Virus record (IMG/VR): IMGVR_UViG_3300017782_004813
Span: 1-29,913 of that record
Direction: 5' to 3' (one strand)
Source: a virus
DNA: 29,913 bases
The notes beneath the pieces are model-generated. The model saw nothing but the letters and a program-made list of their open reading frames with translations, made no database searches and had not been told where the DNA came from. Every line of letters begins with the position of its first letter. Positions within the stretch are counted from its first letter, which is position 1. This document shows positions 736 to 27,035 of this stretch, piece by piece. The position numbers and the translations under genes were made by a program.

Positions 736-1481
736 AAGGTGCAATTTTACTGTATGGTATAACGAGAGGTAACGGTAAGGTGGTTAGTGAGTCGCTGGAA
801 TCCGCAATATACAGCAAGCTCAAAACCGCGGCTCATGAACTCACAATATATCAACATGTTTTTGAAGTTGATTCGATAGACAATCCGAGATCCAAAGTCG
901 GTGAGCATGGTACTGAGATAGAGGATAAAAAAGACTGGAAACACTTCAATGCTACACAGACCATTTTTGAGAATCAAACAAAATATGATTTAGATACAGA
1001 TTGGGATGATGTGTTGAGTGATTGTAACATACATTTCAAGTGCGGTCATTCGATCAGCAATCTTAAAAACATGTATAGACAAATGCATAGTTTGGAAACA
1101 GTTTATGGTATGATTGAAAATAAATCAGCATACGATTATTACTTTATACTGAGACAGGATCTACTTTACACATTGACAGAAAATGACAAGATGTTAGACT
1201 CGATAAACAACATACAGGGCAACAAAACACCATGCGTGGATGTACCTGGCTGGGGAGCGCCATATGGTGTCAATGACCGTATCGCCATAACTAACAAAAC
1301 TGGTGCAGATGTGTATTGTAACAGATGGAGATACATCAACACATGCCCGGAAGGAGTCAGTTCAGAGGTCTTTCTAGAACACGTTTTGAACAACACCAAT
1401 ACAAAACATAATAAATTCCGGCAAGTTGGTAAAAGATTAAGAGCCAATGGAGAGATTGAAAAATATGACAAGAAGTTATAA
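732..1481 (+). CDS. Predicted glycosyltransferase (unclassified)
   Basis: 249 aa. Seen: an N-terminal hydrophobic beta strand (residues 3-10). A segment YDYYFILRQDLLYT (about 134-147) contains an R-x-D motif like the metal- and nucleotide-sugar-binding acidic motifs of GT-A enzymes. A later NDR motif (181-183) within a VNDRIAIT context is typical of uncharacterised glycosyltransferase-like proteins. No transmembrane segment is apparent. Its ATG overlaps the TGA of the upstream sulfotransferase, and a sulfotransferase follows, so it probably adds a sugar to a glycan that those enzymes decorate. Donor and acceptor cannot be deduced. The glycosyltransferase call is from motif memory and is weaker than for its neighbours. 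Confidence 0.5.
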   Translation: MKGAILLYGITRGNGKVVSESLESAIYSKLKTAAHELTIYQHVFEVDSIDNPRSKVGEHGTEIEDKKDWKHFNATQTIFENQTKYDLDTDWDDVLSDCNIHFKCGHSISNLKNMYRQMHSLETVYGMIENKSAYDYYFILRQDLLYTLTENDKMLDSINNIQGNKTPCVDVPGWGAPYGVNDRIAITNKTGADVYCNRWRYINTCPEGVSSEVFLEHVLNNTNTKHNKFRQVGKRLRANGEIEKYDKKL

Positions 1482-1487
1482 TAAATA
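1480..1487 (+). promoter_or_regulatory. T4-type late promoter-like motif
   Basis: AATAAATA differs from the T4 late consensus TATAAATA only at the first base. It overlaps the stop codon of the preceding gene and ends 5 nt before the ATG at 1493. T4-type late transcription starts roughly 5-6 nt after this box, so transcripts from here would be nearly leaderless. Confidence 0.45.
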
Positions 1488-1492
1488 TATGT

Positions 1493-2089: not shown

Positions 2090-2093
2090 AGAT

Positions 2094-2792: not shown

Positions 2793-2863
2793 ATATTGAA
2801 ACGAAAAAACAAACTACTATATTTAAATAAGATTAAGAACGAGAATAAAAAAAAGAAAAAGAA

Positions 2864-3595: not shown

Positions 3596-3613
3596 TGGTA
3601 TCATTTGATATCC

Positions 3614-4321
3614 ATGAAAGTAGGTTTCGCGTTTTTAGTCACTAAAGAATTTCACAACAGAGAACATTTAAAAAATTTTTTTGATAGTTTAGGTCTTGAT
3701 ATAAAAATATGTGTTCATTCAAAAAAGAACGCTAGATTCAATTTACCGTTTCCGGTGGACTACATAAAGAGTATCAAAACCGGTTGGGGTCAACCGAGTT
3801 TAGTCAAAGCGAGTATTCTTTTGTTTGAACATCTATTTGACAAAGGATGTGATATTGTGTATCTAATGTCCGGGGACATGATACCGTTGAAACGATGCAA
3901 AAAATTCATTACACGCAATCGAAAAACAACATTCCACACACCACCTCCAATACACAATGACAAACCTCACAATCCAACCATAAAACGTAATCATAATCAA
4001 TACAAAGGTACATCACTACAATTCAAAGATAAAATTACATTTAATAAATTCACAAAACAAAACATGTTCTTCTGTATATCCAGTCACGATTTTAACAACA
4101 TTGAACCAGATTTTAGTCTCTTTCAAAGAACATTCGCGATTGATGAATGGTTCTGGATCAACACGATGATATATCATGGTATGAAGTTTCAGACAAATAT
4201 AAATTACATCTACTGCAACCCTAAATTGCATGAAACACAGGCCTTGTTTTTTGATGAGATACCTGAGAGTGTTAACAATGAATTCTTGTTCATGAGAAAA
4301 ATACATCTGGACGTGAATTGA
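3614..4321 (+). CDS. GT14-like glycosyltransferase, paralogue of 2094-2792
   Basis: 235 aa from the ATG at 3614. I prefer this to the in-frame TTG at 3605 because the protein then begins MKVGFAFLV, aligning with its paralogue. Seen: CVHSKK (33-38), YLMSGDMIPL (83-92, identical to the paralogue) and DEWFW (177-181). An intervening K-Q-N-M-F-F-C block is also shared. A central insert of about ten residues rich in H, N and P (about 109-128) is absent from the paralogue. The role is presumably the same type of branching transfer with a different acceptor. It is cytoplasmic, with no membrane segment. Confidence 0.6.
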   Translation: MKVGFAFLVTKEFHNREHLKNFFDSLGLDIKICVHSKKNARFNLPFPVDYIKSIKTGWGQPSLVKASILLFEHLFDKGCDIVYLMSGDMIPLKRCKKFITRNRKTTFHTPPPIHNDKPHNPTIKRNHNQYKGTSLQFKDKITFNKFTKQNMFFCISSHDFNNIEPDFSLFQRTFAIDEWFWINTMIYHGMKFQTNINYIYCNPKLHETQALFFDEIPESVNNEFLFMRKIHLDVN

Positions 4322-4329
4322 TCATCTAG

Positions 4330-4337
4330 AATAAATA
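4330..4337 (+). promoter_or_regulatory. T4-type late promoter-like motif
   Basis: AATAAATA lies between two genes and ends 6 nt before the ATG at 4344. It has the same sequence and nearly the same spacing as the box at 1480, implying a near-leaderless late transcript. Confidence 0.45.
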
Positions 4338-4343
4338 CTATTG

Positions 4344-4928
4344 ATGGTTAACGATGAATATAAATTTATATTTGTACATGTGAGAAAAACCGGGGGAACG
4401 AGTCTTGAGCAAGTTTTTGATTCTTCCGCCGGTCACGGGAAAGATGAAGTACCGTACAAGCATTACACGGCTGTAGAACTACGAGAAATGTTTCCACACA
4501 AATGGGACAAGTATTACACGTTTAGTTTTGTCAGAAACCCATGGAGCTGGTTGGTGTCACGTTACAAATGGAGCAACGGTGTGCATAATTACATTAAATC
4601 AGCGACATTTGAACAATTTGTAGTAGAATTGTGTCAAGGTAACACAAGCAACATCCCGCAATGGATAGTGAGAGCGTGTGAACCACAAATCAACATGATT
4701 GGAGACAACAACAGAGTAATTGTTGATCATGTGTACAGATTTGAACAACTGCAATCCGGGTTCGATCACATATGTGATACGATCAATCACCCAAAAAATA
4801 AACTGCCACACAGCACCAAAACAAAACACAAACACTACACTGAATACTATGATGATACAACACGTGAGCTTGTCACACGTAAATATGCTAGAGATATAGA
4901 AACATTTGGATATATATTCGGAGACTAG
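4344..4928 (+). CDS. Sulfotransferase family protein (Sulfotransfer_2-like)
   Basis: 194 aa from the ATG at 4344; a TTG one codon earlier is less likely. Seen: HVRKTGGTSLE (12-22) as the PAPS 5'-phosphosulfate loop, SFVRNPWSWLVSRY (61-74) as the 3'-phosphate motif, and a VYRFEQL block near residue 131. These are the standard landmarks of bacterial and viral carbohydrate sulfotransferases. It closely parallels 1493-2089 in length and motif order, including the C-terminal YTEYYDD / YTKYYDD block, so the two are paralogues. A DUF616 glycosyltransferase-like gene begins 2 bp after its stop. It is predicted to act on a glycan assembled by the neighbouring enzymes. Confidence 0.85.
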   Translation: MVNDEYKFIFVHVRKTGGTSLEQVFDSSAGHGKDEVPYKHYTAVELREMFPHKWDKYYTFSFVRNPWSWLVSRYKWSNGVHNYIKSATFEQFVVELCQGNTSNIPQWIVRACEPQINMIGDNNRVIVDHVYRFEQLQSGFDHICDTINHPKNKLPHSTKTKHKHYTEYYDDTTRELVTRKYARDIETFGYIFGD

Positions 4929-4929
4929 C

Positions 4930-5754
4930 ATGAAAGTAGCGTACATAACAGCAATAACAGGTGCATATGAAGCAACCTGTAAAAAGTTTCCAAAACAAAC
5001 CGTGGATAGCGATTTTATATGCTTCACGGATTGTGAGAACATAGAGAGTAATGGTTGGGAGATAGACACACGTGAGTACCACTACGAATTTCCATCCGAT
5101 GTTGATAACAACAAATATAAAAACTCTCTATGTAACAACAAACACACATTCAATATAGCCAAATATTACAAGCAACAATTTCACAACATACCTCGACTCA
5201 AATCGTATGATGTTGTTGTGTGGGTTGACGGTACTGTGTCTATAAAAAACAACAACACCAGTAAAGATCTGATCGCGCATATGGACGAAGGTAACTTGTT
5301 GATAACATGTGAGCATCGAAAACATAGACGTTCACTGAAAAAAGAAGCTGAGATGTCAGTCTCCAAAAGACTACGCAAACCGAAGTATGCATCAACACAC
5401 TGGAATGGTCAAGATCAACCGTACCAAGACACCATCGAGCAATATGAACAGTATGTTAAAAATGGATACACGGAGCAATACTGGGTGAATGTTAAACCAA
5501 GAAATAGATACTATGGGGTTTTTGTAACATGCTTCACTGGATGGGACATGAGGAATGAAAAAACTAGGCAATTTTTAGATATGTGGTACAAGCAAACATT
5601 ACAACACACAACACAAGATCAAGTAGGATTTGCTTATGTTGCCCAAAAAATGAACATACACCCATACACGGCCATGTTCAATGGTCAATCCGGTTACTAC
5701 TGGAGCGGTGCTCCGCATAATAATTATTTTGAAAAAATCGCACACGGTCAATAA
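4930..5754 (+). CDS. DUF616/TOD1-MUCI70-like glycosyltransferase
   Basis: 274 aa from the ATG at 4930. An upstream TTG at 4906 would overlap the preceding gene and add residues unlike the family. Seen: an N-terminal VAYITAITGAYE strand, FICFTD (29-34), an N-K block, and VVVWVDGTVSI (95-105), which holds the D-G equivalent of the DxD. A DQ pair lies near residue 240. This order matches the DUF616 (TOD1/MUCI70) domain, related to glycosyltransferases and known mostly from plants and bacteria. The family's biochemistry is poorly known, so the sugar is not predicted. It lies between two sulfotransferases, consistent with glycan assembly. Confidence 0.65.
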   Translation: MKVAYITAITGAYEATCKKFPKQTVDSDFICFTDCENIESNGWEIDTREYHYEFPSDVDNNKYKNSLCNNKHTFNIAKYYKQQFHNIPRLKSYDVVVWVDGTVSIKNNNTSKDLIAHMDEGNLLITCEHRKHRRSLKKEAEMSVSKRLRKPKYASTHWNGQDQPYQDTIEQYEQYVKNGYTEQYWVNVKPRNRYYGVFVTCFTGWDMRNEKTRQFLDMWYKQTLQHTTQDQVGFAYVAQKMNIHPYTAMFNGQSGYYWSGAPHNNYFEKIAHGQ

Positions 5755-5795
5755 ATTAAATTGATTTCCGGTGTCAACAATATTAAAATAATTGT

Positions 5796-6959
5796 ATGAT
5801 AGTTTCGCACAAACATAAGTTTATATTTGTCAAAACACATAAAACCGCAACACAATCATTTTTCAATGTGATCAAACCACATCTCGGTCCAGATGATGTT
5901 GCAGTGGGTGATGAACGTGTAGCTGATGACACATACAATCTAGATAGACCCACAGAAGAGTGGAGATTTGTTGACACGAGTCTCAATCTAGACAAGCAAT
6001 TCCCCACCGGAAAGAGTGCGAGAGACACAAAAGAGTACATGGGTAATCACATACCATGGTTCACAATAAAGGATATTGTTGGAGACGAGATCTGGAATAC
6101 GTACGCGAAATTTTCTATCGAAAGAGATCCATTGGATCGTATTGTATCTCTATTCTATTTTTTAGAGAAAAGATTTGTACACCCACTTGGTGGGGTGCGT
6201 GTCAATCCAGACAGCAAATGGTTAGAGGGTATCAATTTCGCAATAAATGAGAAGCATGATGATATAGTTGCAGTTGGAGCTGGTAATCCTAAAAAACCTA
6301 GAGACCCGAAATTTTTCGTAATGAAAGACAAAGAACAATCCCCTGTTGATCTGGACCCGGAGGGTGTTAGAGAATATTTCGAAGATTGGGTGTTGTGTCA
6401 ATTGTTGTGTGATGAATTGTCATTAACAGACATCAAAACATACGGTGTTGAGGCAGTAGAGCCAGAAAGAAAGATTTACAAGCAAGCGTGTGACAAACAC
6501 AAGTTGGTCGCAATGTTTATGGAGGATGAATCTCGCGTGAAACTCAGTGTCAACAATCGGCAGTGGATGACATGTCCATCATTGAAGCAAGACATACTAG
6601 TATCTGATAGAGATTATTACAACCCGAACACAAAAAATGCATACAAGCGATTTTTATCACTTGAGGGTCAATGTAGATTTTTAAACTATGGTTACTATCA
6701 TGATGGTAAAGAGATGCAAATTGACCATCTTGTAAAATTCTCAAAAGACCTGCCAAGAGAGTTTAATAAATTCTTCGATAAACATGATATAAACATCAAA
6801 CTATCACCAGATGATTTCAAAAAACGTTCACTGAATATCAATCATCGCAAAACATTAAACAAGGTGAAAACAGTTGATTGGTGGTTTAGTGGGAAAAGAG
6901 GTGAAAAAATTAAAAATTTAATACACAAAAGGTTCGATAACATAGTCAAGTTCAAATAA
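5796..6959 (+). CDS. Large sulfotransferase-like protein
   Basis: 387 aa, about twice the length of the other sulfotransferases here. Seen: KTHKTATQSF (13-22) as a degenerate PAPS 5' loop, with T-A-T-Q in place of G-G-T-S. FSIERDPLDRIVSLFYF (106-122) is the 3'-phosphate-binding strand-helix with R-D-P for the usual R-N-P. After the core comes an insert rich in charged residues (about 130-230) and a basic C-terminal tail (about 330-387). The core motifs make a sulfotransferase fold likely. The altered loop means the donor should be regarded as probable rather than certain. It is followed 8 bp later by a glycosyltransferase-like gene. Confidence 0.65.
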   Translation: MIVSHKHKFIFVKTHKTATQSFFNVIKPHLGPDDVAVGDERVADDTYNLDRPTEEWRFVDTSLNLDKQFPTGKSARDTKEYMGNHIPWFTIKDIVGDEIWNTYAKFSIERDPLDRIVSLFYFLEKRFVHPLGGVRVNPDSKWLEGINFAINEKHDDIVAVGAGNPKKPRDPKFFVMKDKEQSPVDLDPEGVREYFEDWVLCQLLCDELSLTDIKTYGVEAVEPERKIYKQACDKHKLVAMFMEDESRVKLSVNNRQWMTCPSLKQDILVSDRDYYNPNTKNAYKRFLSLEGQCRFLNYGYYHDGKEMQIDHLVKFSKDLPREFNKFFDKHDINIKLSPDDFKKRSLNINHRKTLNKVKTVDWWFSGKRGEKIKNLIHKRFDNIVKFK

Positions 6960-6967
6960 GTATAGTC

Positions 6968-8791
6968 ATGTCGTCAGAATACGTCTCGCATCTATGTACC
7001 TTCATGGGAAGGGAAGCCAATTTAAAGATACTTTTACCATATATCGAAACCTGTTTGCGTGTTGAAGCCATTGATAATTACTGGTTCATTGACATGACTC
7101 GTAAGAGATCAGATCACGAGTATATAAAGCAAGTAAGTCAGGAGATGAATGAGAAATTCCCTGGTCGTGTTCATTTGTACAACAGTGATGAGAGGTCAGC
7201 AATTATCGATGACCCAGAAGTCATCAAGACAGTTTCAAATGATTGGAGTGTGTTTTACAAGTTTTTGAGGAAGTTTAATGATAATGATATCATTGCTAAA
7301 TGTGATGACGACACATACTACATTGATGTTGAAACACTCAAGGGTGCTTTTGATTACAGATGGAACAACAAACGTCCATACATCATGCACGCTAATGCTA
7401 TAAACAATGGTGTAGCTGCATTTCATCAGAGCAAGAAAAAGATATGGGATGGTGATGAAGAGAAACTTTATCCGATTGGTGGTCTGACTGGTCCCCTTTT
7501 CTCACACCCGGAGATTGCATGTAAACATCATGACGCGTTCGCGACCGATATGTTACAAGACAGAAGCAATATCAACAAGTACAAGCTTGGTAAAAACATA
7601 CATTTTACTAACAGAGTGTCAATCAACTTCTTTTTCATGTTGGGTAGTGATCGCAACAGTTTATCAAAAATCACACGACAAGATGAATATGACACGAGCT
7701 GCAAGTACCCTCAAGTCGAAGATAGGCCCAACATGTTGATTGGTGATTTCACGATGGCGCATCACACGTATGGTGTTCAAGAGCCGGTGATGGAAAGACT
7801 CGAGACTGATATCAAATATAGAGAGCTTTCTGAAAAATTAAACAGTGAAGATGTTGTGTATGAACACAAGCCAATAACAGACAAATACGCACCCACGTCT
7901 ACAATAAAATCTGGTGACGAGTATGTGGCGAGAGCATGGGTGGAAAAAAATTCGTACTGCTTGAGAGATCCCAAGACACAGTTATACATATCAACACAAA
8001 ATGTAGTGGCGAACAATCCCAATGGTGATTTTCTCAAAACAAGGTGGGATTCCACATCTGATCTGAAGCAGGCGTGTGTGTTCAATATAGATGTTAATGA
8101 TGAAAATTGCATGTGGATCAACAACAGCATACAAATAATCAGACACCCGGACAAGGATAAAGATCAAGAAGCAGCAGGGATGGGGTACACATTCTTTCAA
8201 GGACTGTACACCAGAAGCAAAATGACCACCACAAGAGACAATGACAAGATTGTGATCAGTCCATCTGGTAAGAGTGATTACACACTCGCTCCGGCGATTT
8301 TAAACGACAACGTACCGGTGGATGACAAACGTAGATCATTGTTGTTCTGGACAAGGAAGGCGAAATTTGAATGGGATCTCGTGCCAGTAAATCAATACAA
8401 CAATCGTGTTGTATCAATGAACATCATCCGCCCGGATAAATGGATGCAATACACCAATGATGAAACGAGAGGTGAATCAAAGATTGATGATTTACCTAAC
8501 AACAACGCGCCACGTGATTACATCTGGATGATCAAAGATTATATCTGGGAATTCAATAAAGTTGATGACAACAAATATCAGATAAAACTAGTGGCGGATG
8601 ACAAGGAAGATTTGTTTCTTGGGAAGCTCGGTAAAACTAACAATGTCGGTACAATCAAAAAACCTGAAAAATGGATCATCGATGGTGAAAAGCTCAGACA
8701 TGGTCCGTCTGGTAAAGAGCTGCATGTTAACGACGTTGGTGAGATTAAATTAGAAGAAACCGGTTCGAGTTTAGATATCAACATACAGTGA
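6968..8791 (+). CDS. GT-A glycosyltransferase with beta-rich C-terminal half
   Basis: 607 aa, the largest protein in the cassette. Seen: the N-terminal half (about 1-300) has alternating strand-helix character and a CDDDTYYID motif (112-120). This D-D-D is the metal/nucleotide-sugar motif of GT-A enzymes such as the GT31 and hydroxylysine-transferase groups. The C-terminal half (about 320-607) is rich in aromatic and polar residues. It has recurring short W-containing segments that resemble a beta-trefoil or other carbohydrate-binding fold, but I cannot assign a family. No signal or membrane segment is visible. Its TGA overlaps the GTG start of the next gene. Role inferred: processive or acceptor-anchored sugar transfer. 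Confidence 0.5.
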   Translation: MSSEYVSHLCTFMGREANLKILLPYIETCLRVEAIDNYWFIDMTRKRSDHEYIKQVSQEMNEKFPGRVHLYNSDERSAIIDDPEVIKTVSNDWSVFYKFLRKFNDNDIIAKCDDDTYYIDVETLKGAFDYRWNNKRPYIMHANAINNGVAAFHQSKKKIWDGDEEKLYPIGGLTGPLFSHPEIACKHHDAFATDMLQDRSNINKYKLGKNIHFTNRVSINFFFMLGSDRNSLSKITRQDEYDTSCKYPQVEDRPNMLIGDFTMAHHTYGVQEPVMERLETDIKYRELSEKLNSEDVVYEHKPITDKYAPTSTIKSGDEYVARAWVEKNSYCLRDPKTQLYISTQNVVANNPNGDFLKTRWDSTSDLKQACVFNIDVNDENCMWINNSIQIIRHPDKDKDQEAAGMGYTFFQGLYTRSKMTTTRDNDKIVISPSGKSDYTLAPAILNDNVPVDDKRRSLLFWTRKAKFEWDLVPVNQYNNRVVSMNIIRPDKWMQYTNDETRGESKIDDLPNNNAPRDYIWMIKDYIWEFNKVDDNKYQIKLVADDKEDLFLGKLGKTNNVGTIKKPEKWIIDGEKLRHGPSGKELHVNDVGEIKLEETGSSLDINIQ

Positions 8792-9714
8792 AAATACTAA
8801 TCACAGGCGCCACAGGACTTGTAGGTGCAAGCATGGTCAAACAAGCGCGTGATTTGTTTAAACATGAAGTCATATCAGTATCAAGTAAAGATTGTGATTT
8901 ATTAGATGCGAGAGCAACTGAGAATTACATAGTGGGTCACAAACCTGATGTTGTGATACATCTAGCAGCCAACGTTGGTGGGTTGTTCAAAAACATGAAC
9001 AACAAAGTTGAGATGTTTGAACATAACATTCGCATGAATTCAAATGTTATCAGTGCATGTCACAAAGCTGGAGTTGAGAGATTCATAGGAACGTTGTCTA
9101 CATGTATATTTCCAGATAAAACTACATACCCTATTGATGAGAGCATGCTGCAACTGGGACCACCACATACATCCAATGATGCGTACGCTTATGCCAAGAG
9201 AATGTTGATGGTGCAATGTGATGCATATAACGAACAGCACGGTACAAACTACTCATGCATCATACCCACAAATGTGTATGGTGATAATGACAATTACAAT
9301 CTACAGGACGCTCATGTGATCCCGGCACTCATACACAAATGCTATCTAGCCAAGAAAGAATCTAAAAGTTTCGTCGTCGCGGGTTCTGGTAAACCTTTGA
9401 GGCAATTCATACATGCAGATGATCTGGCCAATATAACACTACAGCTGATTGATAAAATCGACAGAGAGAGTGTCATCATATCACCAGAGCAAGAAATCAG
9501 CATAGGTGATGTAGCTAAACATATCGCTGATGCATTTGATTACAGCAAGATGATGAGATTTAATCTCGAGTTACCTGATGGTCAATACAAAAAGACTGCT
9601 GACAACACAAAGATGTTGAAACTAATATCCGATTATGAATTTATCGATTTGAAACAAGGTATATATAGAACTGTCGACCACTTCATAAATAACTTCGATC
9701 AAATTAGAAAATAG
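8788..9714 (+). CDS. fcl: GDP-L-fucose synthase
   Basis: 308 aa, close to the usual ~310-320. Start is GTG, overlapping the upstream TGA by 3 bp. Seen: Rossmann GATGLVGA (7-14) for [12 protein letters not shown] (58-65), STCIFP (104-109) with the family Ser/Cys, and YAYAK (133-137) giving the catalytic Tyr-x3-Lys. This is a short-chain dehydrogenase/reductase epimerase-reductase. It converts GDP-4-keto-6-deoxy-D-mannose to GDP-L-fucose by 3,5-epimerisation and NADPH reduction. The next gene encodes the preceding pathway enzyme (Gmd), so the pair makes GDP-L-fucose from GDP-mannose in the infected cell. The dimerisation and C-terminal substrate-binding region appears complete. Confidence 0.92.
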
Positions 9715-9718
9715 ACAA

Positions 9719-10735
9719 ATGAAAAAACTTGCATTAATAACAGGCATAACAGGGCAGGATGGATCATATTTAACGGAATTATTACTGGATGAAGGGTATG
9801 AAGTGCATGGTATAGTGCGCAGAAGCTCTTCTATCAACACCGGGAGAATCGACCATCTATACGACAAGATAACGCTACACTACGGCGATTTAACGGACAG
9901 TACAAACATAACACGTTTAGTTGCATTGCTAAAACCAGATGAAATTTACAATTTAGGGGCCATGAGCCATGTCAAAGTGAGCTTTGAGGTACCTGAATAC
10001 GTTGCAGATGTTGATGCTATCGGTACATTGCGCATTTTAGAAGCTGTGAGATTGAATGGTCTTATAGATAAAACCAAAGTGTATCAAGCATCAACAAGTG
10101 AATTGTACGGGCTTGTGCAAGAAGTACCACAGCGTGAAACAACACCATTTTATCCTAGATCACCGTACGGTTGCGCAAAGCTTTACGGGTATTGGATTAC
10201 TAAAAATTACAGAGAATCGTATGACATGTTTGCCTGTACCGGTGTGTTGTTCAATCATGAATCCCCAAGAAGGGGAGAAACATTTGTGACAAGGAAAATA
10301 ACCAGGGCGTTGAATAGTATATTGAAGGGTGATCAAGACAGATTAACGCTGGGTAATCTAGATGCAAAGAGAGATTGGGGGCATGCCCGGGATTATGTAC
10401 GTGGTATGTGGTTGATGTTGCAGCAAGACAAGCCTGATGATTATGTGTTATCCACAAATGAGTTTCACAGTGTCCGAGAATTTGTTGAAATGAGCTTCAA
10501 GTTGAAAGGATTTGATATCAAATGGAAAGGTGTAGGGGTAAGTGAGATTGGTTATGATGAATCAACTGGTCGCGAATTGGTGTTTGTGTCAGAGAATTAT
10601 TTCCGACCCGCGGAAGTCGAACAGTTACTTGGTGATTCTACAAAAGCTAGACAAGAGCTAAAATGGGTACCAGAGGTCAGTTTTGAGCAGTTAGTTCAAG
10701 AGATGGTCGAACATGATTGTGGGGCTGACGAGTGA
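9719..10735 (+). CDS. gmd: GDP-mannose 4,6-dehydratase
   Basis: 338 aa, typical of bacterial and phage Gmd. Seen: TGITGQDG (8-15), the NADP(H)-binding loop in its Gmd-specific form. [16 protein letters not shown] (33-48) carries the family R-R-S-S-x-x-N signature. STSELYG (125-131) holds the catalytic Thr/Glu. Tyr150-x3-Lys154 and a NHESPRRGE-type segment near residue 180 complete the active site. It converts GDP-D-mannose to GDP-4-keto-6-deoxy-D-mannose, the substrate of the adjacent fcl product. It starts 4 bp after fcl and its TGA overlaps the GTG of the next gene. GDP-mannose must come from the host or from genes outside the window. Confidence 0.95.
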
Positions 10736-11562
10736 AAATTGGAGTTGTAGGTAATGGATTTGTTGGCAGAGCCATGACTCTGTTACGACCAGGTGTCGAT
10801 GTTCTGGTTTGGGACATCGATCCAAATAAATGTGAACCGTTCAATCTGACATTCGAACGGTTTGTTAATGATGTAGAATTGATCTTTGTCGCGGTACCGA
10901 CACCAATGAACCCAGATGGTACATGCCATCTCAACATTGTGAGATCTGTTGTCAATAAAATAAAGGAGCTTAATTATGAGAAACACATCGTATTGAGATC
11001 AACTATACCACCTGGTACATGTGACAGCATGGATGTTAGTTTCATGCCGGAATTCTTGACCGAGAAAAATTGGGCACATGATTTCAAAAACTGCGAACAA
11101 TGGATAATTGGTACTGACAACACATTAATTTACAACAAAATAAAAACAATATTCTCACAAGCCAAATCGAGTGAATCTGTTGTTAATGACAACATAATAC
11201 AAACAACACCTGCAGAGGCAGAGATGATCAAGTATGTAAAAAATTGTTACCTCGCAACAAAAGTTAGCTTCTTTAACGAGATATACAACACATGTCAAGC
11301 AGCAAATATCAATTTCGAAAATGTACGAAGTGTGGCCTGTGAGGATTCTAGAATAGGTATAGGGCACTCAACGGTACCGGGACATGATGGTAGGACGGGG
11401 TACGGTGGAACGTGTTTTCCGAAGGACATGAATGCTTTGACTAAATTCATGGAGCAACACAACGTCGTGTCACATGTACTATCGGGTGCTGTGATCAGAA
11501 ATGAAACGATCGATCGTGTTGAAAAAGATTGGTTGAGTGACACTGGCCGAGCAGCAATCTAA
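10732..11562 (+). CDS. Short UDP-glucose/nucleotide-sugar 6-dehydrogenase
   Basis: 276 aa, starting at GTG overlapping the gmd stop. Seen: GNGFVG (7-12) NAD loop, VAVPTPMN (53-60), RSTIPPGT (89-96) and MPEFL (105-109). [15 protein letters not shown] (161-175) supplies the catalytic Glu and Lys/Asn. GGTCFPKD (225-232) contains catalytic Cys228. The family oxidises the C6 hydroxyl of UDP-glucose (or a related sugar) twice to give a uronate. The protein ends shortly after the central dimerisation helix. The C-terminal Rossmann-like UDP-binding domain of the usual ~390-450 aa enzymes is absent, with no frameshift visible. It may be a compact phage version; activity and substrate are therefore uncertain. 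Confidence 0.8.
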
Positions 11563-11577
11563 GCATATATAATACAT

Positions 11578-12582
11578 ATGAAAGTAAATATATACGGGTG
11601 TGGAATGAGCGGCACGGTCGCTGCAATTTTATTGAAAGAGCAGGGTCATGATGTCGAGATTTTCGAGGTCAGAGATCATATTGCCGGTAATTGCTATGAT
11701 CATAAAAATGATGATGGGTGTACAGTACATGAATATGGATCACATATCTTTCATACAAATGATGAATCTGTTTGGAATTTTCTGAACAAATACACAAAAT
11801 TTAATGACTATGAACACCGGGTGCGTGCCAACACAAGTGTAGGTTTAATCAGCATACCTTTCAGCAAGAAGACGGAAGAGCAACTCGGTCGAGATTTATC
11901 ACCAACTGAGATACAAGAGCTGTTGTTCCGTGAGTATTCGGAACGTCACTGGGGCATACCTTGGGAGCAATTACCCAAGAGCATCAGCGGTCGTGTGCCT
12001 AACAAACGTGACAATCATGATGACAGATATTTCACAGACAAATACCAAGGTATCCCGGAACACGGTTATACCAAAATGTTTGAAAACATGCTAGATGGTA
12101 TCAAAGTTAATCTAGGTGTAGAACATGGTTTGCACAAGCGTCTCAAAGCAGATCTTGTTGTTTGGACAGGAAAGGTATCTGAGTATTTTGATTTGAAATT
12201 AGGTCATCTCCCTTATCGTTCATTACGTTTTGAACATGAGCGTGTAAAGAAGGATCCACTGTATACATGGGAGCAAGGCGCCGTTATAAACGAATGTAAT
12301 ACCAAGCCTTTCAATCGTACCATGGATAGTAGTGTGTATTTGAATGAACAAGTTGAACACACCATACACACACGTGATTTTCCAGAAGAGTATGAGCCCG
12401 GTAAGAATGCGCCTATATATCCGAAAACGTTCGGTGAAGGACCAGAAGTGTACAAAAAATATCAGCAAATGGCCAACAGTGACCCCAACACAATATTTTT
12501 AGGTAGACTAGCAACATATAGATATCTAGACATGTGGATGGCAGTGAAACAGGTTATGGGCAAGCTGAAAAAAATTAGCTAA
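11578..12582 (+). CDS. glf: UDP-galactopyranose mutase
   Basis: 334 aa, slightly shorter than the common ~365-390. Seen: FAD-binding GCGMSGTVAA (7-16) with Glu30 at the end of the second strand. AGNCYD (36-41) and EYGSHIFHT (52-60) are signature blocks of UGM. A central substrate lid follows, and near the C-terminus FLGRLATYRYLDM gives the conserved G-R-x-x-T-Y-R-Y-x-D-M. The flavoenzyme interconverts UDP-galactopyranose and UDP-galactofuranose. This points to galactofuranose in the glycan made by the cassette. It is the last gene of the carbohydrate run; a TATAAT box lies 4 nt before the ATG. Confidence 0.93.
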   Translation: MKVNIYGCGMSGTVAAILLKEQGHDVEIFEVRDHIAGNCYDHKNDDGCTVHEYGSHIFHTNDESVWNFLNKYTKFNDYEHRVRANTSVGLISIPFSKKTEEQLGRDLSPTEIQELLFREYSERHWGIPWEQLPKSISGRVPNKRDNHDDRYFTDKYQGIPEHGYTKMFENMLDGIKVNLGVEHGLHKRLKADLVVWTGKVSEYFDLKLGHLPYRSLRFEHERVKKDPLYTWEQGAVINECNTKPFNRTMDSSVYLNEQVEHTIHTRDFPEEYEPGKNAPIYPKTFGEGPEVYKKYQQMANSDPNTIFLGRLATYRYLDMWMAVKQVMGKLKKIS

Positions 12583-12604: not shown

Positions 12605-12612
12605 AATAAATA
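12605..12612 (+). promoter_or_regulatory. T4-type late promoter-like motif before the head genes
   Basis: AATAAATA lies 7 nt before the ATG at 12620, in the 37-nt gap between the carbohydrate and head modules. It is well placed to start late transcription of the head genes with almost no leader. Confidence 0.5.
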
Positions 12613-14447: not shown

Positions 14448-14455
14448 GATAAATA
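14448..14455 (+). promoter_or_regulatory. T4-type late promoter-like motif before gp21
   Basis: GATAAATA ends 10 nt before the ATG at 14466. An ATG-TAA pair lies in between (14458-14463), so the transcript would have a leader of only about 5 nt or a two-codon mini-reading frame. Confidence 0.45.
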
Positions 14456-15153: not shown

Positions 15154-15315
15154 ATGAAAAACGAAAACCATTCAAAATATATCGCCGGTTTTATTCGCAG
15201 TTTAGGTGAAAAAAACTATGCTGTGGCCAATAAAATGTTACAGAAAACTATAGAAAGTAAGTTAATTAATCGTTTAAATCGTCACAAAAACATAAATATA
15301 TTTAAAAATGAGTGA
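15154..15315 (+). CDS. Small conserved-type head protein (possible prohead core component)
   Basis: 53 aa. It starts 4 bp after gp21 and overlaps the scaffold gene by 8 bp. Seen: a basic, helical protein with YIAGFIRSLGEKNYAVANK (9-27) followed by a basic helix with L-x-x-x-I-x-x-K repeats. The 'F-I-x-S-L-x-E-K-N-Y-A-x-A-N-K' pattern resembles short proteins found between gp21 and gp22 in other T4-like phages. T4 itself places its core proteins gp67 and gp68 near here. The function is not proven; a core or assembly role is inferred from position and tight coupling. Confidence 0.65.
   Translation: MKNENHSKYIAGFIRSLGEKNYAVANKMLQKTIESKLINRLNRHKNINIFKNE
15291..15298 (+). promoter_or_regulatory. 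T4-type late promoter-like motif before the scaffold gene
   Basis: CATAAATA ends 9 nt before the ATG at 15308 and lies inside the 3' end of the small upstream gene. It would allow separate, strong late transcription of the scaffold. Confidence 0.45.
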
Positions 15316-16237: not shown

Positions 16238-16249
16238 TGAATTTTGTTG

Positions 16250-16276
16250 AGGCATTATATGCCTGAGTTTAAAGGA
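16250..16276 (+). promoter_or_regulatory. Hairpin plus Shine-Dalgarno ahead of the capsid gene
   Basis: An inverted repeat AGGCAT-TAT-ATGCCT (16250-16264) is followed by AAAGGA (16271-16276), 11 nt before the ATG at 16288. This is the clearest Shine-Dalgarno-like element in the window, where most genes have none. The hairpin could stabilise or expose the leader of the most highly expressed late mRNA. Confidence 0.4.
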
Positions 16277-16287
16277 ACATTAGAAAT

Positions 16288-17721
16288 ATGTCACAGGTAA
16301 AACCATCACAATCATACATCGATCAAGAGCGCGCCAGCGTGCTTCTTGAGAAATGGGCTCCGGTTTTGGACTACAGTTCCGAGAACGTTAAAGCCATCAC
16401 TGATGACCATTCTCGTTTGAACACCGCTATCCTCTTGGAAAACCAAGAGACGTGGTGCTTGAAAGAGAATTCATACGGTGGAGGAGCTCTCGGAAGTGCT
16501 GCTAGCTTTGGTGCACCTACCGCTCCAGGAGGACCTGGAGATGCGTACGCAACAGGCGACAGCCGTCTTCCCAAAATCTTGATCCCAATGATTCGTCGTA
16601 CATTCCCTGAACTTATCACTAATGAGATCGTAGGCGTTCAACCCATGAGCGGTCCAGTAGGACTCGCTTTTGCTATGCGTTACAAGTACGAAACCGATAG
16701 CCTTGGTTCCACTGGAATCGACGGACACACTAGCGGTTCAACCACTACTGGTAACGACGGACAACCTCGTCAAAATGACGGTCTTGAAGCTGGATATCAA
16801 ACACTTGACACCCGTTTCACCGGAGCTAGCTCCGCTGATTTAAACGGTGACTCAGGTCTCGGTATCGACTTCATTGACAATGACGCAGGTGTTGCAAAAG
16901 CACTCGCTGATTACGAACTTACCGGCAACATTCCACAGATGGTCGTTTCATTTGAAAAGACCGCTGTTGAAGCTGGAACTCGTAGATTAGCTGCTCGTTG
17001 GAGTGTGGAACTTGAGCAAGACCTCAAGAACATGAACGGTATTGATATCGACACTGAATTGACAAACGCTATGTCGTATGAAATTCAGGCTGAAATCGAC
17101 CGTGAAATGCTCATGAGAATGGTTCAAGTTGCTGCCAACGCAGGCGCAGGCAAAGGTGTAAGTACCTGGAGCCCTGCAAGTGCTGACGGACGTTGGATGG
17201 CCGAGCGTAATCGTGACCTTTATGCCAAGATCATTGTTGAAGCGAATCGTATCGCTATCCGCAACCGTCGTGGTGCTGCTAACTTCTTAGTTGCTACACC
17301 TCGCGTATGCGCGATTCTTGAAATGCTCCCTGAGTTTCAGTGGATGCAAGTTCAAGGCAACGTGAATACCCAACCAGTGGGCATCGCTCGCGTGGGTAAT
17401 CTCGGCGGAAGGTTCAACGTTTACCGCGACACACGTACAGAAGCTCAATACGAAAATGGTGATCGTACCAATCGTATGGAGTATATCCTCTTAGGCTATA
17501 AAGGTCCTGAGTTTTACGACACAGGTATCATTTACTGCCCATACATCCCAGTGATGGTACAGAGGACTGTTGGTCCTAATGATTTTGCTCCACGCGTTGG
17601 TCTTTTGACCCGTTATGGTGTTGTTGACAACATCTTTGGTGCAGATCTTTACTACCATGTTATCGTTGTGAAGAATCTCGGTGAGTCGTTCGCACCCGGC
17701 ACTCAGTCGGTGTACTTCTAA
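16288..17721 (+). CDS. Major capsid protein, T4 gp23-like
   Basis: 477 aa (T4 gp23 is 521 before cleavage). Seen: an N-terminal delta region with L/I-x-E sites (LLE at 49-51, LKE at 58-60) suited to gp21 cleavage, followed by a Gly/Ala-rich stretch. IRRTFPELITNEIVGVQPM (about 102-120) and WSVELEQDLKNMNGIDIDTE (about 238-257) are classic gp23 blocks. A central D-R-E-M-L-M-R-M helix follows. The C-terminal YYHVIVVKNLGESF block is the characteristic end of the HK97-type fold. It forms the hexamers of the shell. Codon choice differs from its neighbours (more CGT, AAC, GGA, TCC; higher GC), as expected for a very highly expressed gene. It ends 64 bp before an intrinsic terminator. Confidence 0.95.
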   Translation: MSQVKPSQSYIDQERASVLLEKWAPVLDYSSENVKAITDDHSRLNTAILLENQETWCLKENSYGGGALGSAASFGAPTAPGGPGDAYATGDSRLPKILIPMIRRTFPELITNEIVGVQPMSGPVGLAFAMRYKYETDSLGSTGIDGHTSGSTTTGNDGQPRQNDGLEAGYQTLDTRFTGASSADLNGDSGLGIDFIDNDAGVAKALADYELTGNIPQMVVSFEKTAVEAGTRRLAARWSVELEQDLKNMNGIDIDTELTNAMSYEIQAEIDREMLMRMVQVAANAGAGKGVSTWSPASADGRWMAERNRDLYAKIIVEANRIAIRNRRGAANFLVATPRVCAILEMLPEFQWMQVQGNVNTQPVGIARVGNLGGRFNVYRDTRTEAQYENGDRTNRMEYILLGYKGPEFYDTGIIYCPYIPVMVQRTVGPNDFAPRVGLLTRYGVVDNIFGADLYYHVIVVKNLGESFAPGTQSVYF

Positions 17722-19717: not shown

Positions 19718-19746
19718 ATTATATCCTATTCAAGACAGATTGTCAA
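19718..19746 (-). promoter_or_regulatory. Perfect sigma70-type promoter of the kinase-queF-cupin operon
   Basis: On the - strand, TTGACA (19746-19741), a 17-bp spacer and TATAAT (19723-19718) match the consensus exactly. The ATG of the kinase gene follows 7 nt after the -10, so the expected start site falls at or next to the A of the ATG and the mRNA would be leaderless. The -35 begins one base after the stop codon of the upstream gene. Confidence 0.85.
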
Positions 19747-20847: not shown

Positions 20848-21405
20848 TTATGTTAGAAATTGTTCCCATAAATCTAACGCCATCGATGATAAACTGCAAC
20901 TTAATTGTTTCTCGCTATGAAAATCGTTGAATGTTGACACTTGAGCAAGAACTTTACCTTCATCAACACCAGGAGACACCTCGTGTATCACACAACCAAT
21001 CTCGCGATATGTCTTTTGCTGTTCATTGAATGCACGTGTCTGTGGATCAGCACCCTTTAGTTCCGGATACTTGGTGATCAACCCGGGATGTAAATTGTAC
21101 AGTTTGAAACTATCACATATGGTGGCCGGTACAATTCTCATCCATCCATGCAATGTCACAACACTGTCCGGATCTTTTATCAGACGATCGTAGTCTTGCT
21201 CATCTGGTGTGCTCTTGGTATACACAATATCAATGCTGTTATTATCCACCATGCGCATCAGATCCTCGCTTATTGTTTTATCTCCTGGAGGTTTGTTGAC
21301 CACCACTCGATCCGGTACACGATTCACTCTGCAGCTCAAGTTGTAAATCTCTGCTCCCGTGTGACTGAAAAACGTCACCCATCTTTTGTCCTTGTCTAGA
21401 ATCAT
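20848..21405 (-). CDS. Formyltransferase, predicted dPreQ1 formyltransferase (DpdN-like)
   Basis: 185 aa, a compact formyltransferase domain. Seen: TLHGWMRIVP (84-93), the counterpart of the PurN 'LAGFMRIL' block. NLHPGLITKYP (104-114) carries the catalytic Asn104 and His106, and SPGVDEGKVLAQ (144-155) carries Asp148. These reproduce the Asn-His-Asp triad of 10-formyl-THF-dependent formyltransferases such as PurN and Fmt. No Fmt C-terminal tRNA domain is present. A phage formyltransferase named DpdN has been proposed to formylate preQ1 in DNA to give fdPreQ1. Direct coupling here to a TGT-like gene (4-bp overlap) and a nearby queF makes that role the best explanation. Alternative: a phage GAR transformylase, though no other purine gene is nearby. 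Confidence 0.75.
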   Translation of the reverse strand: MILDKDKRWVTFFSHTGAEIYNLSCRVNRVPDRVVVNKPPGDKTISEDLMRMVDNNSIDIVYTKSTPDEQDYDRLIKDPDSVVTLHGWMRIVPATICDSFKLYNLHPGLITKYPELKGADPQTRAFNEQQKTYREIGCVIHEVSPGVDEGKVLAQVSTFNDFHSEKQLSCSLSSMALDLWEQFLT

Positions 21406-22220
21406 CTTCTCAGTATTTTTTTAAACATTGTTGTGTTGTGTTGTAATATTTCAAATTGTTTGTCTGTGAACTCATGGTCTATTAGATCAGCCAGCATGGT
21501 TTTAGGTTTGTATTGCAAGCCTTGATCATCAATATATCTACTGTCATGAATAGCGGCAACTATCGGGTTACTGGTGTCAACACTCTTGATGTTGTATATG
21601 TTGTTGTCAACATAGTATCTAAACTCTTTGGCTAGACTACACCCTAACAAATGATGTGGCTTGTCCCAGCACCAGTAACCTTCATCGATCAGATGTCTGA
21701 TGAAGCGTTTCCGGCCAGAGCACCATTTTTGTAGTGTCGGATCCGCTACATCGTTGTCAACCAACCCGGTTGCAAGATAGTAGCTATAATCAAAACTGAT
21801 CGCGATAATATCAGCATTGTCTTTGATATAATTGTAACAGCGCACCAGCTCATTCCAGCTCTTTCCCTGAACCACACCAATTCTCAAAGCGTTCGAATCA
21901 ACATCATGTTCTCTTGTCCATGTCTTCCATTTGTCTATTGTACCAGCTGCATCTTCCAACACATCAGGTACAATATAGTAATCCGGATCCAATTTGTCAA
22001 TCCATTGCGCATATTTGTCACCATCAAAGCTTTTGCCTAGTTCAAAGATGCTGTTGTCCAACAACACAGGACATCTGTTTGTATCAGTTAAATTTTTGTA
22101 AAAATTATAATATTTGGTGTTCGTCTCGAACAGATGCACCAGAGCATATGCATAATCATTGTATTCTAAACTCTCATTCAAAATGGAAACCGGACTTTCG
22201 TGTGACACTTCAATTAACAT
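21402..22220 (-). CDS. dpdA: TGT-like guanine transglycosylase (DpdA-like)
   Basis: 272 aa from the ATG at 22220; longer in-frame starts run into the promoter and the divergent gene. Seen: VLLDNSIFELG (52-62), VPDVLED (84-90), RIGVVQGKSW (113-122), ISFDYS (141-146), HHLLGCS (189-195) and IKSVDTSNP (211-219). This set follows the TIM-barrel order of tRNA-guanine transglycosylase relatives: substrate-pocket Asp, 'VQG' strand, central FD, and terminal S-x-D-T-S-x-P strand. No CxCxxC zinc cluster of tRNA-type TGT is visible. Phage members (DpdA) swap guanine in DNA for a 7-deazaguanine base after replication. With queF and the formyltransferase, the inserted base is predicted to be preQ1 or its formyl derivative. 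A tRNA substrate cannot be excluded. Confidence 0.75.
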   Translation of the reverse strand: MLIEVSHESPVSILNESLEYNDYAYALVHLFETNTKYYNFYKNLTDTNRCPVLLDNSIFELGKSFDGDKYAQWIDKLDPDYYIVPDVLEDAAGTIDKWKTWTREHDVDSNALRIGVVQGKSWNELVRCYNYIKDNADIIAISFDYSYYLATGLVDNDVADPTLQKWCSGRKRFIRHLIDEGYWCWDKPHHLLGCSLAKEFRYYVDNNIYNIKSVDTSNPIVAAIHDSRYIDDQGLQYKPKTMLADLIDHEFTDKQFEILQHNTTMFKKILRR

Positions 22221-22226
22221 ACCATT

Positions 22227-22255
22227 ATTATAAATACAAATGTTGCAAATGTCAA
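22227..22255 (-). promoter_or_regulatory. Perfect sigma70-type promoter of the dpdA operon
   Basis: On the - strand, TTGACA (22255-22250), a 17-bp spacer and TATAAT (22232-22227) are an exact consensus match. The dpdA ATG lies 6 nt after the -10, so the transcript should be leaderless. The same geometry is seen at 19718-19746. An inverted repeat AATGTC-AAC-GACATT (22248-22262) covers the -35 and could be a repressor site. Confidence 0.85.
22229..22236 (+). promoter_or_regulatory. Exact T4 late promoter consensus
   Basis: TATAAATA on the + strand is an exact match to the T4 late box and shares four bases with the -10 of the divergent dpdA promoter. It lies about 45 nt upstream of the Clp gene and points towards it. 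Use of this box by late RNA polymerase would physically conflict with the - strand promoter. Confidence 0.55.
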
Positions 22256-22268
22256 CGACATTGTTTAA

Positions 22269-22276
22269 CATAAATA
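22269..22276 (+). promoter_or_regulatory. Second late promoter-like motif before the Clp gene
   Basis: CATAAATA ends 3 nt before the ATG at 22280 and 6 nt before the second ATG at 22283. The 6-nt spacing matches the other genes here and favours 22283 as the true start if this box is used. Confidence 0.45.
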
Positions 22277-22279
22277 TAT

Positions 22280-24763
22280 ATGATGAGTCAACAACAAGAA
22301 TTATCACCAGCTTCACGACAAGTGATGAGCCGAGCGAAAGCTCTAGCGCGTCACTACATGCATGAGTTCATAACAACCGAACATGTGTTGCTCAGCATAC
22401 TGGAATGCGACAAGCCATGCAGAGGTATCGAGATAATACAGGATCTGGAAGTGGACATCAAGGAGTTCTCTAGTTTTGTGATGAGTAATCTGAGCAAATA
22501 CAAAGGTGATAAGAAACCAGAGCTGAAAGACATCGAACCATCAGCTAGAGTGTTGAAAGTGATAACATACGCAGGTGCAATTGCTGATGAGATGGAAGCG
22601 GACATGATTCTGGTGGATCATCTGTTGTTGAGCATCCTTGTGAGTGACGCAGGTTCAGGTAACAACTTGTTTAGATTGAAGAATATCGATGTCAACTTGT
22701 TGTATGAGATGATATACATTGAGATATTACCCAAGAAACGCAAACGTAAACAAAACAACACACCGGAAGAAGCTGACATCGCTGAGCGTGAATCACCTGC
22801 AGGCATGTACCTGTCCGGAGATCAACCAGAAGAAGAACCCACCATACTCGACAAAGTAGCAGTGAACATGACACATCGCGCATTGACTGGTGAGTTGGAT
22901 CCTGTGATTGGTAGAGACTTTGAAACTGAGAACGTGATTCAGATATTGTCACGTAGAACAAAGAACAATCCTGTGCTGATAGGCGAGCCAGGTGTCGGTA
23001 AAACAGCTGTTGTCGAATGTTTAGCACAACGAGTCGCACAAAATGATGTGCCAATGAAATTGAGAAACAAGCAAATATACTCTCTTGATGTGGCTCAACT
23101 CGTAGCAGGAACCATGTATCGCGGACAATTTGAAGAACGATTGAAAGAGGTGATCAATCATGTGCAATCACGTGACGATGTGATCATATTCATCGATGAG
23201 ATACACATGATTGTCGGTGCCGGGGCAGGAACCAGCACCATGGATGTGAGCAACATACTCAAACCAGCGTTGGCGCGTGGTGAGTTCAGTTGCATTGGTG
23301 CAACAACTCTGCAAGAATACAAAGAGAGCATCGAATCAGATGGAGCTCTTGACAGAAGATTTCAAACCGTGTATGTGGATGAACCAGATGACACTGAGAC
23401 AATGAACATTCTCAAGGGTATCAAACACAAATATGAACAGTATCACAATGTCAAGTACAACGCTCAAGTGTTGGACGAGATAATAAGATGTTGTTCACGT
23501 TACATGCATGACAAAAAATTTCCAGACAAAGCCATTGATGTGCTAGATGAACTAGGAGCACGCGTGAGTGTCAAACAATATCACTCGGACAGCAGCTTCA
23601 GAGACACCATCAAACATGTGCAAAGCGTGATTGGTCGCAAGGAACGTGCAGTGGAAACACAGCAATTTGACCTGGCGTTGTCACATAGAGAAACAGAACA
23701 TGAACTCATATCACAACTCGAGTACATGATTGACGAGAGAAACAGACTGGAACAACAACACATGAAACCCTCGAGAATCACTTGTGACCAGGTACGTGAG
23801 TTGGTATCCGATAAAACCGGCATCCCTGTTATTAGCATAGGAGACGATGAAGCAACACGTGTTAGCAGCTTGGAGAGACGGGTGAACAAACTGGTGTTAG
23901 GTCAAGATTCCGGTGTGAACAAGATTTGCGGAGCCATCAAACGCAGCAGAGCCGGTGTGAGTGACCCGGACAAACCCATATGTTCGTTGTTGTTTCTTGG
24001 ACCAACCGGTGTGGGTAAAACACATCTGGCCAGAACACTTGCGGATGAGATGTTCGATGGTGACAATTTCAAACAATTCGACATGAGCGAGTACAGTGAG
24101 AGTCACAGCATCAGCAAATTGATCGGAAGTCCTCCTGGTTATGTGGGTTATGGAGAAGGTGGCAGACTCACGGAATTTGTGAGGCACAACCCATATTGCG
24201 TGTTGTTGTTTGACGAGATAGAAAAAGCTCATTCAGACGTGTTACAAGTGTTTCTGCAATTGTTAGAGTATGGTCACGTGACAGACAGTGACGGTATAGA
24301 AGTGAATTTCAAAAACACAATCGTGATCATGACCAGCAACATTGGTGCTCATCGATTCGGTAAAAAGCCCACCGTGGGATTTCAACAAACCTCAGTGGAA
24401 GATCCTGTGATCGAGGAGCTGAAAAAACAATACGCACCAGAATTTATCAACAGAATAGATGAACTGGTGGTGTTTGACAAACTGACCAAGCAACACATGT
24501 TACATGTGACCAAACACATGCTCAACACTTTGAAAACAAACATTCGTAAGAATGCGAAAAAACGTTTGATCATAACTAATCAAGTGTCAGAACTACTGGC
24601 CAGTCGATTGACCGACATGGATCTTGGTGCTCGACCCATGAGACGCATGATAACCGACATGATCGAAACACCATTAGCAGACAAGATAATAGACAATCAC
24701 GATCACAAACAATATACCATCGATGTGCGTGATGATCAAGTGATCATTCTACCAACCTCTTGA
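22280..24763 (+). CDS. Clp/Hsp100 AAA+ unfoldase, ClpC/ClpA-like
   Basis: 827 aa (826 from the second ATG at 22283). Seen: an N-terminal double Clp_N repeat (about 10-75 and 85-150). AAA module 1 has Walker A GEPGVGKT (235-242) and Walker [10 protein letters not shown] (301-309). A short charged middle coil (about 440-495) is ClpC/UvrB-like rather than the long ClpB arm. AAA module 2 has GPTGVGKT (about 574-581) and [10 protein letters not shown] near 641. A KKPTVGFQ loop (about 695-702) corresponds to the ClpP-docking (I/V)G(F/L) loop of ClpC/ClpA. It therefore looks able to feed proteins to host ClpP. No adaptor or ClpP gene is nearby. It could degrade host regulators or act as a chaperone in assembly. 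Confidence 0.92.
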
Positions 24764-26709: not shown

Positions 26710-26976
26710 TTATTTAGTCTTGGTGCTCTTGGAGGCACGTCTGGTGGTGGTTTTCTTGCTGGTGTCACACGTGCATCGTTCCACCAGCTCCACGAGCTGT
26801 TGCAACACTTGATCCTGTTGATCCAGCCGCTCCACAACAGCCGACAAAGCGCCGGATCGCTCCTGCAACCTGAGCATCATCTGCTGATTCTGGTCCTGTA
26901 GCTCATCACGTTCGCGTTTAAGTCGGTCAATTTCTGAGTACATAGCATTGACTTTTCTGATCTCCCAATCTTTCAT
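26710..26976 (-). CDS. Short coiled-coil protein
   Basis: 88 aa from the ATG at 26976; an in-frame TTG two codons earlier lies too close to the promoter box. Seen: heptad-like charged and hydrophobic repeats from about residue 5 to 63 (I-D-R-L, L-Q-E-R, V-E-R-L, V-L-Q-Q-L-V-E-L). A C-T-C pair and a basic Thr/Ser/Lys-rich tail (70-88) follow. It is probably an oligomeric helical bundle with a tail able to contact nucleic acid. No family assigned. It directly follows an exact T4 late box. Confidence 0.55.
   Translation of the reverse strand: MKDWEIRKVNAMYSEIDRLKRERDELQDQNQQMMLRLQERSGALSAVVERLDQQDQVLQQLVELVERCTCDTSKKTTTRRASKSTKTK
26711..26717 (-). promoter_or_regulatory. Late promoter-like motif CTAAATA
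   Basis: CTAAATA on the - strand ends 6 nt before the ATG at 26704 and overlaps the stop codon region of the upstream gene. This variant is one base from ATAAATA, and the spacing again implies a leaderless late mRNA. Confidence 0.5.
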
Positions 26977-26983
26977 ATACAAT

Positions 26984-26991
26984 TATTTATA
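26984..26991 (-). promoter_or_regulatory. Exact T4 late promoter consensus
   Basis: TATAAATA on the - strand ends 7 nt before the ATG at 26976. It sits directly downstream of a terminator-like hairpin pair, as expected for the start of a new late transcription unit. Confidence 0.6.
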
Positions 26992-27012
26992 CCAAGTAGC
27001 GCCGAAGGCGCT

Positions 27013-27035
27013 AAAAAAATTTGAGCCGCAGGCTC
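27013..27035 (-). terminator. Rho-independent terminator for the gene at 27087-27572
   Basis: On the - strand the stem GAGCC-TGC-GGCTC (27035-27023) is followed by AAA and then seven T residues (27019-27013). It lies 51 bp after the stop of the upstream gene. A second hairpin, TAGCGCC-TTC-GGCGCTA (27013-26997), follows the T run and may reinforce the boundary before the late box. Confidence 0.65.

Follow-up and report, generated by a model that had tools for sequence, protein, structure and literature searches.

Which promoters serve two divergent phage genes separated by only 59 bp, and can the early and late programmes of the phage meet in so short an interval? The question is raised by the region between a dpdA-like gene and a clp gene (ATGs 22220 and 22280), for which the preliminary description proposed that a late promoter of clp overlaps the dpdA -10 box and could thereby switch off DNA modification. 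The window, meaning the whole 29.9-kb record analysed here, is a fragment of a T4-superfamily phage. It encodes a neck protein besides gp21-, gp22- and gp23-like proteins, and its capsid protein shares about 35% identity with cyanophage gp23. No phage record matched the window in a nucleotide search. Ahead of the capsid genes (76-12582) there are ORFs whose translations read as sulfotransferase-, glycosyltransferase- and nucleotide-sugar-enzyme-like.

The dpdA-like gene lies in a minus-strand operon with formyltransferase, dATP/dGTP diphosphohydrolase-like, kinase and QueF-like reductase genes, a content consistent with 7-deazaguanine DNA modification. The window thus resembles the phage systems with DpdA and QueF (PMC6884629) in having a dpdA-like gene and a QueF-like reductase gene in one operon. 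It differs from them in that its DpdA-like protein matched nothing in Pfam or NCBIfam, the dpdA label resting on 42% identity to a phage protein annotated as a DNA guanine transglycosylase. No dpdA relatives were confirmed in the bacterial genomes scanned for a clue to the host. The features discussed below are collected in Table 1.

Table 1. Genes, promoter boxes and late-type motifs of the window (positions in the window).
Feature	Position	Strand	Remark
dpdA-like gene (phrog_19058)	21402..22220	-	predicted leaderless; first in the modification operon
clp gene (two-domain ClpA/B-like AAA+ ATPase)	22280..24763	+	alternative ATG 22283
-10 box TATAAT of dpdA promoter	22227..22232	-	invariant in the 11-sequence alignment
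-35 box TTGACA of dpdA promoter	22250..22255	-	6/6 consensus, 17 nt from the -10 box
Distal TATAAATA	22229..22236	+	exact 8-mer, probably fortuitous
Conserved 15-mer GTTGCAAATGTCAAC	22242..22256	+	read as adjacent back-to-back -35 boxes
-35-like TTGCAA toward clp	22243..22248	+	4/6 match to TTGACA; TTGCA[AT] in 11/11
-10-like TAACAT toward clp	22266..22271	+	17 nt from TTGCAA, 4/6 match
Proximal T4-type late box CATAAATA	22269..22276	+	start predicted near 22282 (second clp ATG)
Second 12/12 sigma70 promoter	19718..19746	-	-10 box ends 7 nt before ATG 19710 of the kinase-like gene
Late-type AATAAATA	1480..1487	+	5 nt before ATG 1493
Late-type AATAAATA	4330..4337	+	6 nt before ATG 4344
Late-type AATAAATA	12605..12612	+	7 nt before ATG 12620 (neck gp13-like gene)
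Late-type GATAAATA	14448..14455	+	10 nt before ATG 14466 (gp21-like protease)
Late-type CATAAATA	15291..15298	+	9 nt before ATG 15308 (gp22-like scaffold)
Late-type TATAAATA	26984..26991	-	7 nt before ATG 26976

A sigma70-type early promoter for dpdA is supported by a complete match to the consensus (12/12, TTGACA-17-TATAAT); two such promoters occur in the window, compared with about 0.07 expected from Markov shuffles. The -35 box is retained as TTGACA or TTGATA among relatives in the clp clade, where dpdA adjoins clp. The -10 box ends exactly 6 nt before ATG 22220. Sigma70 -10 boxes occupy positions -12 to -7, and the dpdA transcript is therefore predicted to start at the A of the ATG. This gap measures 6 nt in 59 of 80 sequences, the window included, and 7 nt in another 10, while some outliers of the automatic scoring prove on inspection to have a box 6 nt from the ATG, such as TACAATACCCGTATG in L063. 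The preliminary description had overlooked the -35 box and the 6-nt gap, as well as the second late-type motif, CATAAATA. A sigma70-like GTGACA-18-TATTAT on the plus strand (22202-22231) was set aside, its -35 box lying within the dpdA coding sequence.

The overlap that had drawn attention to the locus is present as described: the minus-strand TATAAT (22232-22227) and the plus-strand TATAAATA (22229-22236) are both exact and have 22229-22232 in common. The 10-mer spanning them, ATTATAAATA, has a single occurrence, compared with an expectation of 0.11 per window, which is mildly unusual window-wide and would be much less so given a -10 box beside an AT-rich spacer. Among ten relatives with the same gene pair, only L005 keeps the distal TATAAATA, and L008 and L013 carry TATAAATG. 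Since a single relative retains the motif at that position, its overlap with the dpdA -10 box is probably a chance match. In the window and its clade, late-type motifs that have an ORF nearby mostly stand 3-12 nt before an ATG; the distal motif is 43-46 nt from the clp ATGs (22280/22283). We also considered a short ORF from ATG 22240, 3 nt past the motif, and rejected it, as it enters clp out of frame and L005, in which the box is kept, lacks an ATG at that place.

An alignment of the window with its ten relatives, taken from viral contigs in which dpdA adjoins clp, retains four blocks: the dpdA -10 box, a 15-mer, a clp-strand box resembling TATAAT, and a late-type [AT]TAA[AG]TA immediately before a clp ATG. 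The last of these is represented in the window by the proximal CATAAATA, which stands 3 nt ahead of the first clp ATG and 6 nt ahead of the second. With AT-rich sequence downstream and agreement with the TATAAATA-type late box at 7 of 8 positions, it qualifies as a T4-type box; T4 late boxes deviate at -13 too, as CATAAATA does (PMC2988020). All 11 clp-clade sequences have [ACGT][AT]TAA[AG]TA 3-10 nt before a clp ATG. Judged by these motifs, it is the proximal CATAAATA, not the distal site, that fits a clp late promoter on all counts.

The 15-mer takes the form GTTGCA[AT]ATGTCAAC in the relatives (with a single-base difference in L010 and an A at one position in some of them) and is found once per clp-clade locus. 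The clp-strand -10 box lies 17-18 nt from its TTGCA and reads TATAAT in seven of the ten relatives, TATTAT in two and TAACAT in one; TANNAT is kept in all 11 clp-clade sequences, and the summed match to the -10 consensus is 60, compared with a mean of 38 and a maximum of 49 in shuffles. Thus, clp probably also has a sigma70-type promoter, placed back-to-back with that of dpdA. The simplest reading of the region would be two back-to-back sigma70-like promoters plus a clp late promoter at 22269-22276. The analysis supports the proposal of the preliminary description that a sigma70-type promoter of the modification operon and a T4-type late promoter of clp share this short divergent region, where two polymerases would hinder each other, but not its placing of the late site at 22229. 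Its idea that late clp expression turns off early dpdA expression is also weakened by the conserved sigma70-like promoter that clp itself possesses.

Two other readings of the region were weighed. According to the earlier model, clp has its late promoter in the TATAAATA at 22229-22236, and a late polymerase bound there would block the dpdA -10 box and shut off the modification genes. In favour of this model, the 8-mer is exact, has 4 bp in common with a perfect -10 box and is seen again in L005. We nevertheless regard it as very improbable: TATAAATA is lost in nine of ten relatives while the -10 box and the proximal late box stay, its distance to the clp ATGs is unlike that of most late boxes of the lineage, its transcript would have a leader with no Shine-Dalgarno (SD) site and with the out-of-frame ATGs 22240 and 22249, and the sigma70-like promoter of clp also argues against it. 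The 15-mer might instead be the operator of a regulator rather than paired -35 boxes, as its 15 nearly invariant base pairs with GTTG/CAAC arms and its invariant TTGCA, which is not a consensus -35 box, would suggest. This seems unlikely, because the TTGACA of the dpdA promoter makes up one half of the block, a TATAAT-like box stands 17-18 nt from the other half in 11 of 11 sequences and the fetched loci have the block nowhere else.

A conserved superposition like the one the preliminary description imagined is seen in a sister clade, at another position and with another gene. In 34 loci among L025-L077, dpdA is paired with a divergent baseplate hub-like gene (Phage_base_V and phrog_430 in the one representative searched), the ATGs being about 36-40 bp apart wherever the divergent start can be placed (e.g. 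L032 7960-8001). In all 34 loci, the spacer of the dpdA promoter contains TAAATA, and its offset does not vary. As a rule the motif reads TGTAAATA and stands 11-15 nt from the ATG, and TGTAAATA was not seen 3-8 nt before other genes; for these reasons, we do not claim it as a late promoter.

Late-type motifs recur across the window, and those within 20 nt of an ATG lie 3-10 nt from it, except for one that is 19 nt from ATG 3614. Unlike its neighbours, the major capsid gene (16288) has no late motif adjoining its ATG; an SD-like AAGGA is present, and a short inverted repeat, AGGCATTATATGCCT, lies upstream (16240-16290). On the minus strand, a terminator-like GC-rich hairpin with a T-run directly precedes the TATAAATA at ATG 26976 (26976-27035). 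Homologues of gp55 were identified in the contigs of 12 of 18 relatives, all outside the clp clade, and none was found in the four clp-clade contigs searched, which are short (20-30 kb). When part of a locus containing gp55 served as query in a distant nucleotide search, no match was returned.

The position of the dpdA and clp boxes relative to their start codons is repeated throughout the lineage. Counted over relatives, which are not phylogenetically independent and thus overstate the number of independent events, distances from TATAAT to the ATG have a sharp maximum at 6 nt (87 distinct sites; no other distance has more than 18), those from ATAAATA have maxima at 5 nt (55 sites) and 7 nt (32 sites), and TTGA-TATAAT-N5-7-ATG occurs at 74 sites in the window and ten relatives, all of which have it, compared with 2 for the reversed-pattern control. 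The latter pattern is absent from eight of nine reference phages and occurs three times in S-PM2. For ATAAATA-N3-7-ATG, the counts against the reversed-pattern control are 43 and 5 in a 217-kb contig of the lineage, and 4 and 7 in T4. With the T4-type late box read as -13 to -6 (PMC2988020), a gap of 5 nt puts the transcription start on the A of the ATG. SD-like sites precede only 9% of window ORFs and 7% of those in relatives (control 0-6%), compared with 57% in T4 and 37% in the Pelagibacter phage HTVC008M.

The 6-nt gap at dpdA, the lineage-wide peaks at 6 nt for the -10 box and 5 nt for the late box, and the near-background level of SD-like sites are the sequence features expected of leaderless transcripts, and the lineage is predicted to make leaderless or nearly leaderless messages generally. 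The late gaps of the window and the clp clade vary between 3 and 10 nt, so that their late messages may have leaders of 0-5 nt rather than none. Clusters of similar leaderless-type early promoters (TTGAC...TATAATAGGNGTATG-like) were noted in contigs G010, G007 and G003, to which L077, L052 and L037 belong (e.g. G010 4004-6689), which suggests an early region of small genes.

A motif 5-10 nt before the ATG in genomes that lack SD sites could also be an A/T-rich translation-initiation element and not a promoter. We consider this quite improbable given that the sequence is the same as the T4 late box and peaks at the exact spacing that places the transcription start on the ATG, that permutations of the same composition are far less enriched, that relatives encode gp55 and that HTVC008M has TATAAATA or GATAAATA exactly 5 nt from the ATG in seven of nine cases. 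A separate matter is whether the dpdA promoter and the proximal clp promoters can be occupied together or whether their polymerases, early and late or two of the sigma70 type, exclude each other without any distal box. In favour of exclusion, 1 bp separates the two -35 boxes and about 60 bp the predicted starts, and a polymerase footprint extends to about -55; the late-type core inside the dpdA promoter spacer in all 34 sister-clade loci points the same way. Tight packing may, however, merely reflect compact genomes, and conserved sigma70-like sites on both sides would suit co-expression equally well, so that mutual exclusion between the divergent promoters is plausible, though we lean somewhat against it.

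The explanation that accounts best for these observations, and that we consider likely, is a compact divergent promoter block whose early and late messages are leaderless or nearly so, the distal TATAAATA being incidental. From motifs, spacing and conservation, we infer the start sites, their timing, leaderless translation and any mutual exclusion of promoters. Early in infection, host-type sigma70 polymerase would use TTGACA-17-TATAAT and start the dpdA/queF operon at the A of the AUG, and the back-to-back sigma70-like promoter, weak in this phage but with a consensus -10 box in most relatives, could start clp. Later, a T4-type (gp55-like) polymerase at CATAAATA (22269-22276) would start clp within a few bases of the AUG. 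Messages of both programmes would be translated without SD pairing, and the TATAAATA at 22229 would be a by-product of a -10 box adjoining an AT-rich spacer. More tentatively, a widespread aquatic branch of the T4 superfamily might run its sigma70 early and gp55 late programmes mainly through leaderless, SD-independent messages, with the divergent block holding one polymerase at a time.

If this holds, the placing of the late box against the start codon and the loss of SD sites would link the position of the promoter directly to the start of translation and would point to hosts that favour leaderless translation. Start codons and promoters would then become callable in many uncultivated phage contigs. 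At this locus, conservation is what separates a striking but probably accidental overlap of motifs from the sites that are retained.

Late transcription in T4 is a textbook system. The likeness to its late promoters (gp55/gp33/gp45; PMC2988020) consists of gp55 homologues in the contigs of relatives and of a TATAAATA-type box that precedes gp21-, gp22- and neck-type genes. The T4 late box, however, lies mainly 24-28 nt before the ATG, with SD signals in the interval, as opposed to mostly 3-10 nt in the window lineage, and T4 has SD-like sites before over half of its ORFs where the window lineage is near background. The late motif of Syn9, 24-39 nt upstream of the ATG, is likewise unlike that of the window lineage. 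HTVC008M (NC_020484) comes closer, with the late-box spacing given above, from which leaderless late messages are predicted; the seven ATGs with the 5-nt spacing are 6280, 7562, 19456, 31132 and 49760, and 18916 and 16007 on the minus strand (locus L090). Unlike the window lineage, it has kept SD-like sites and has no TTGA-TATAAT-N5-7-ATG, and the likeness is one of late-box spacing.

Leaderless initiation is known in phage lambda. Phage transcripts have been described as often leaderless (PMC5312081), and we found no description of leaderless T4-type or pelagiphage late transcripts in the literature, searched largely at the level of titles and abstracts. In leaderless bacterial genes, a TANNNT box lies about 10-12 bp upstream (PMC3160421). 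What the dpdA-clp region has in common with these genes and with lambda is a -10 box directly before the start codon, with an mRNA that would start at or near the AUG; what sets it apart is that the lineage belongs to the T4 superfamily and that both a sigma70-type early box and a T4-type late box are so placed.
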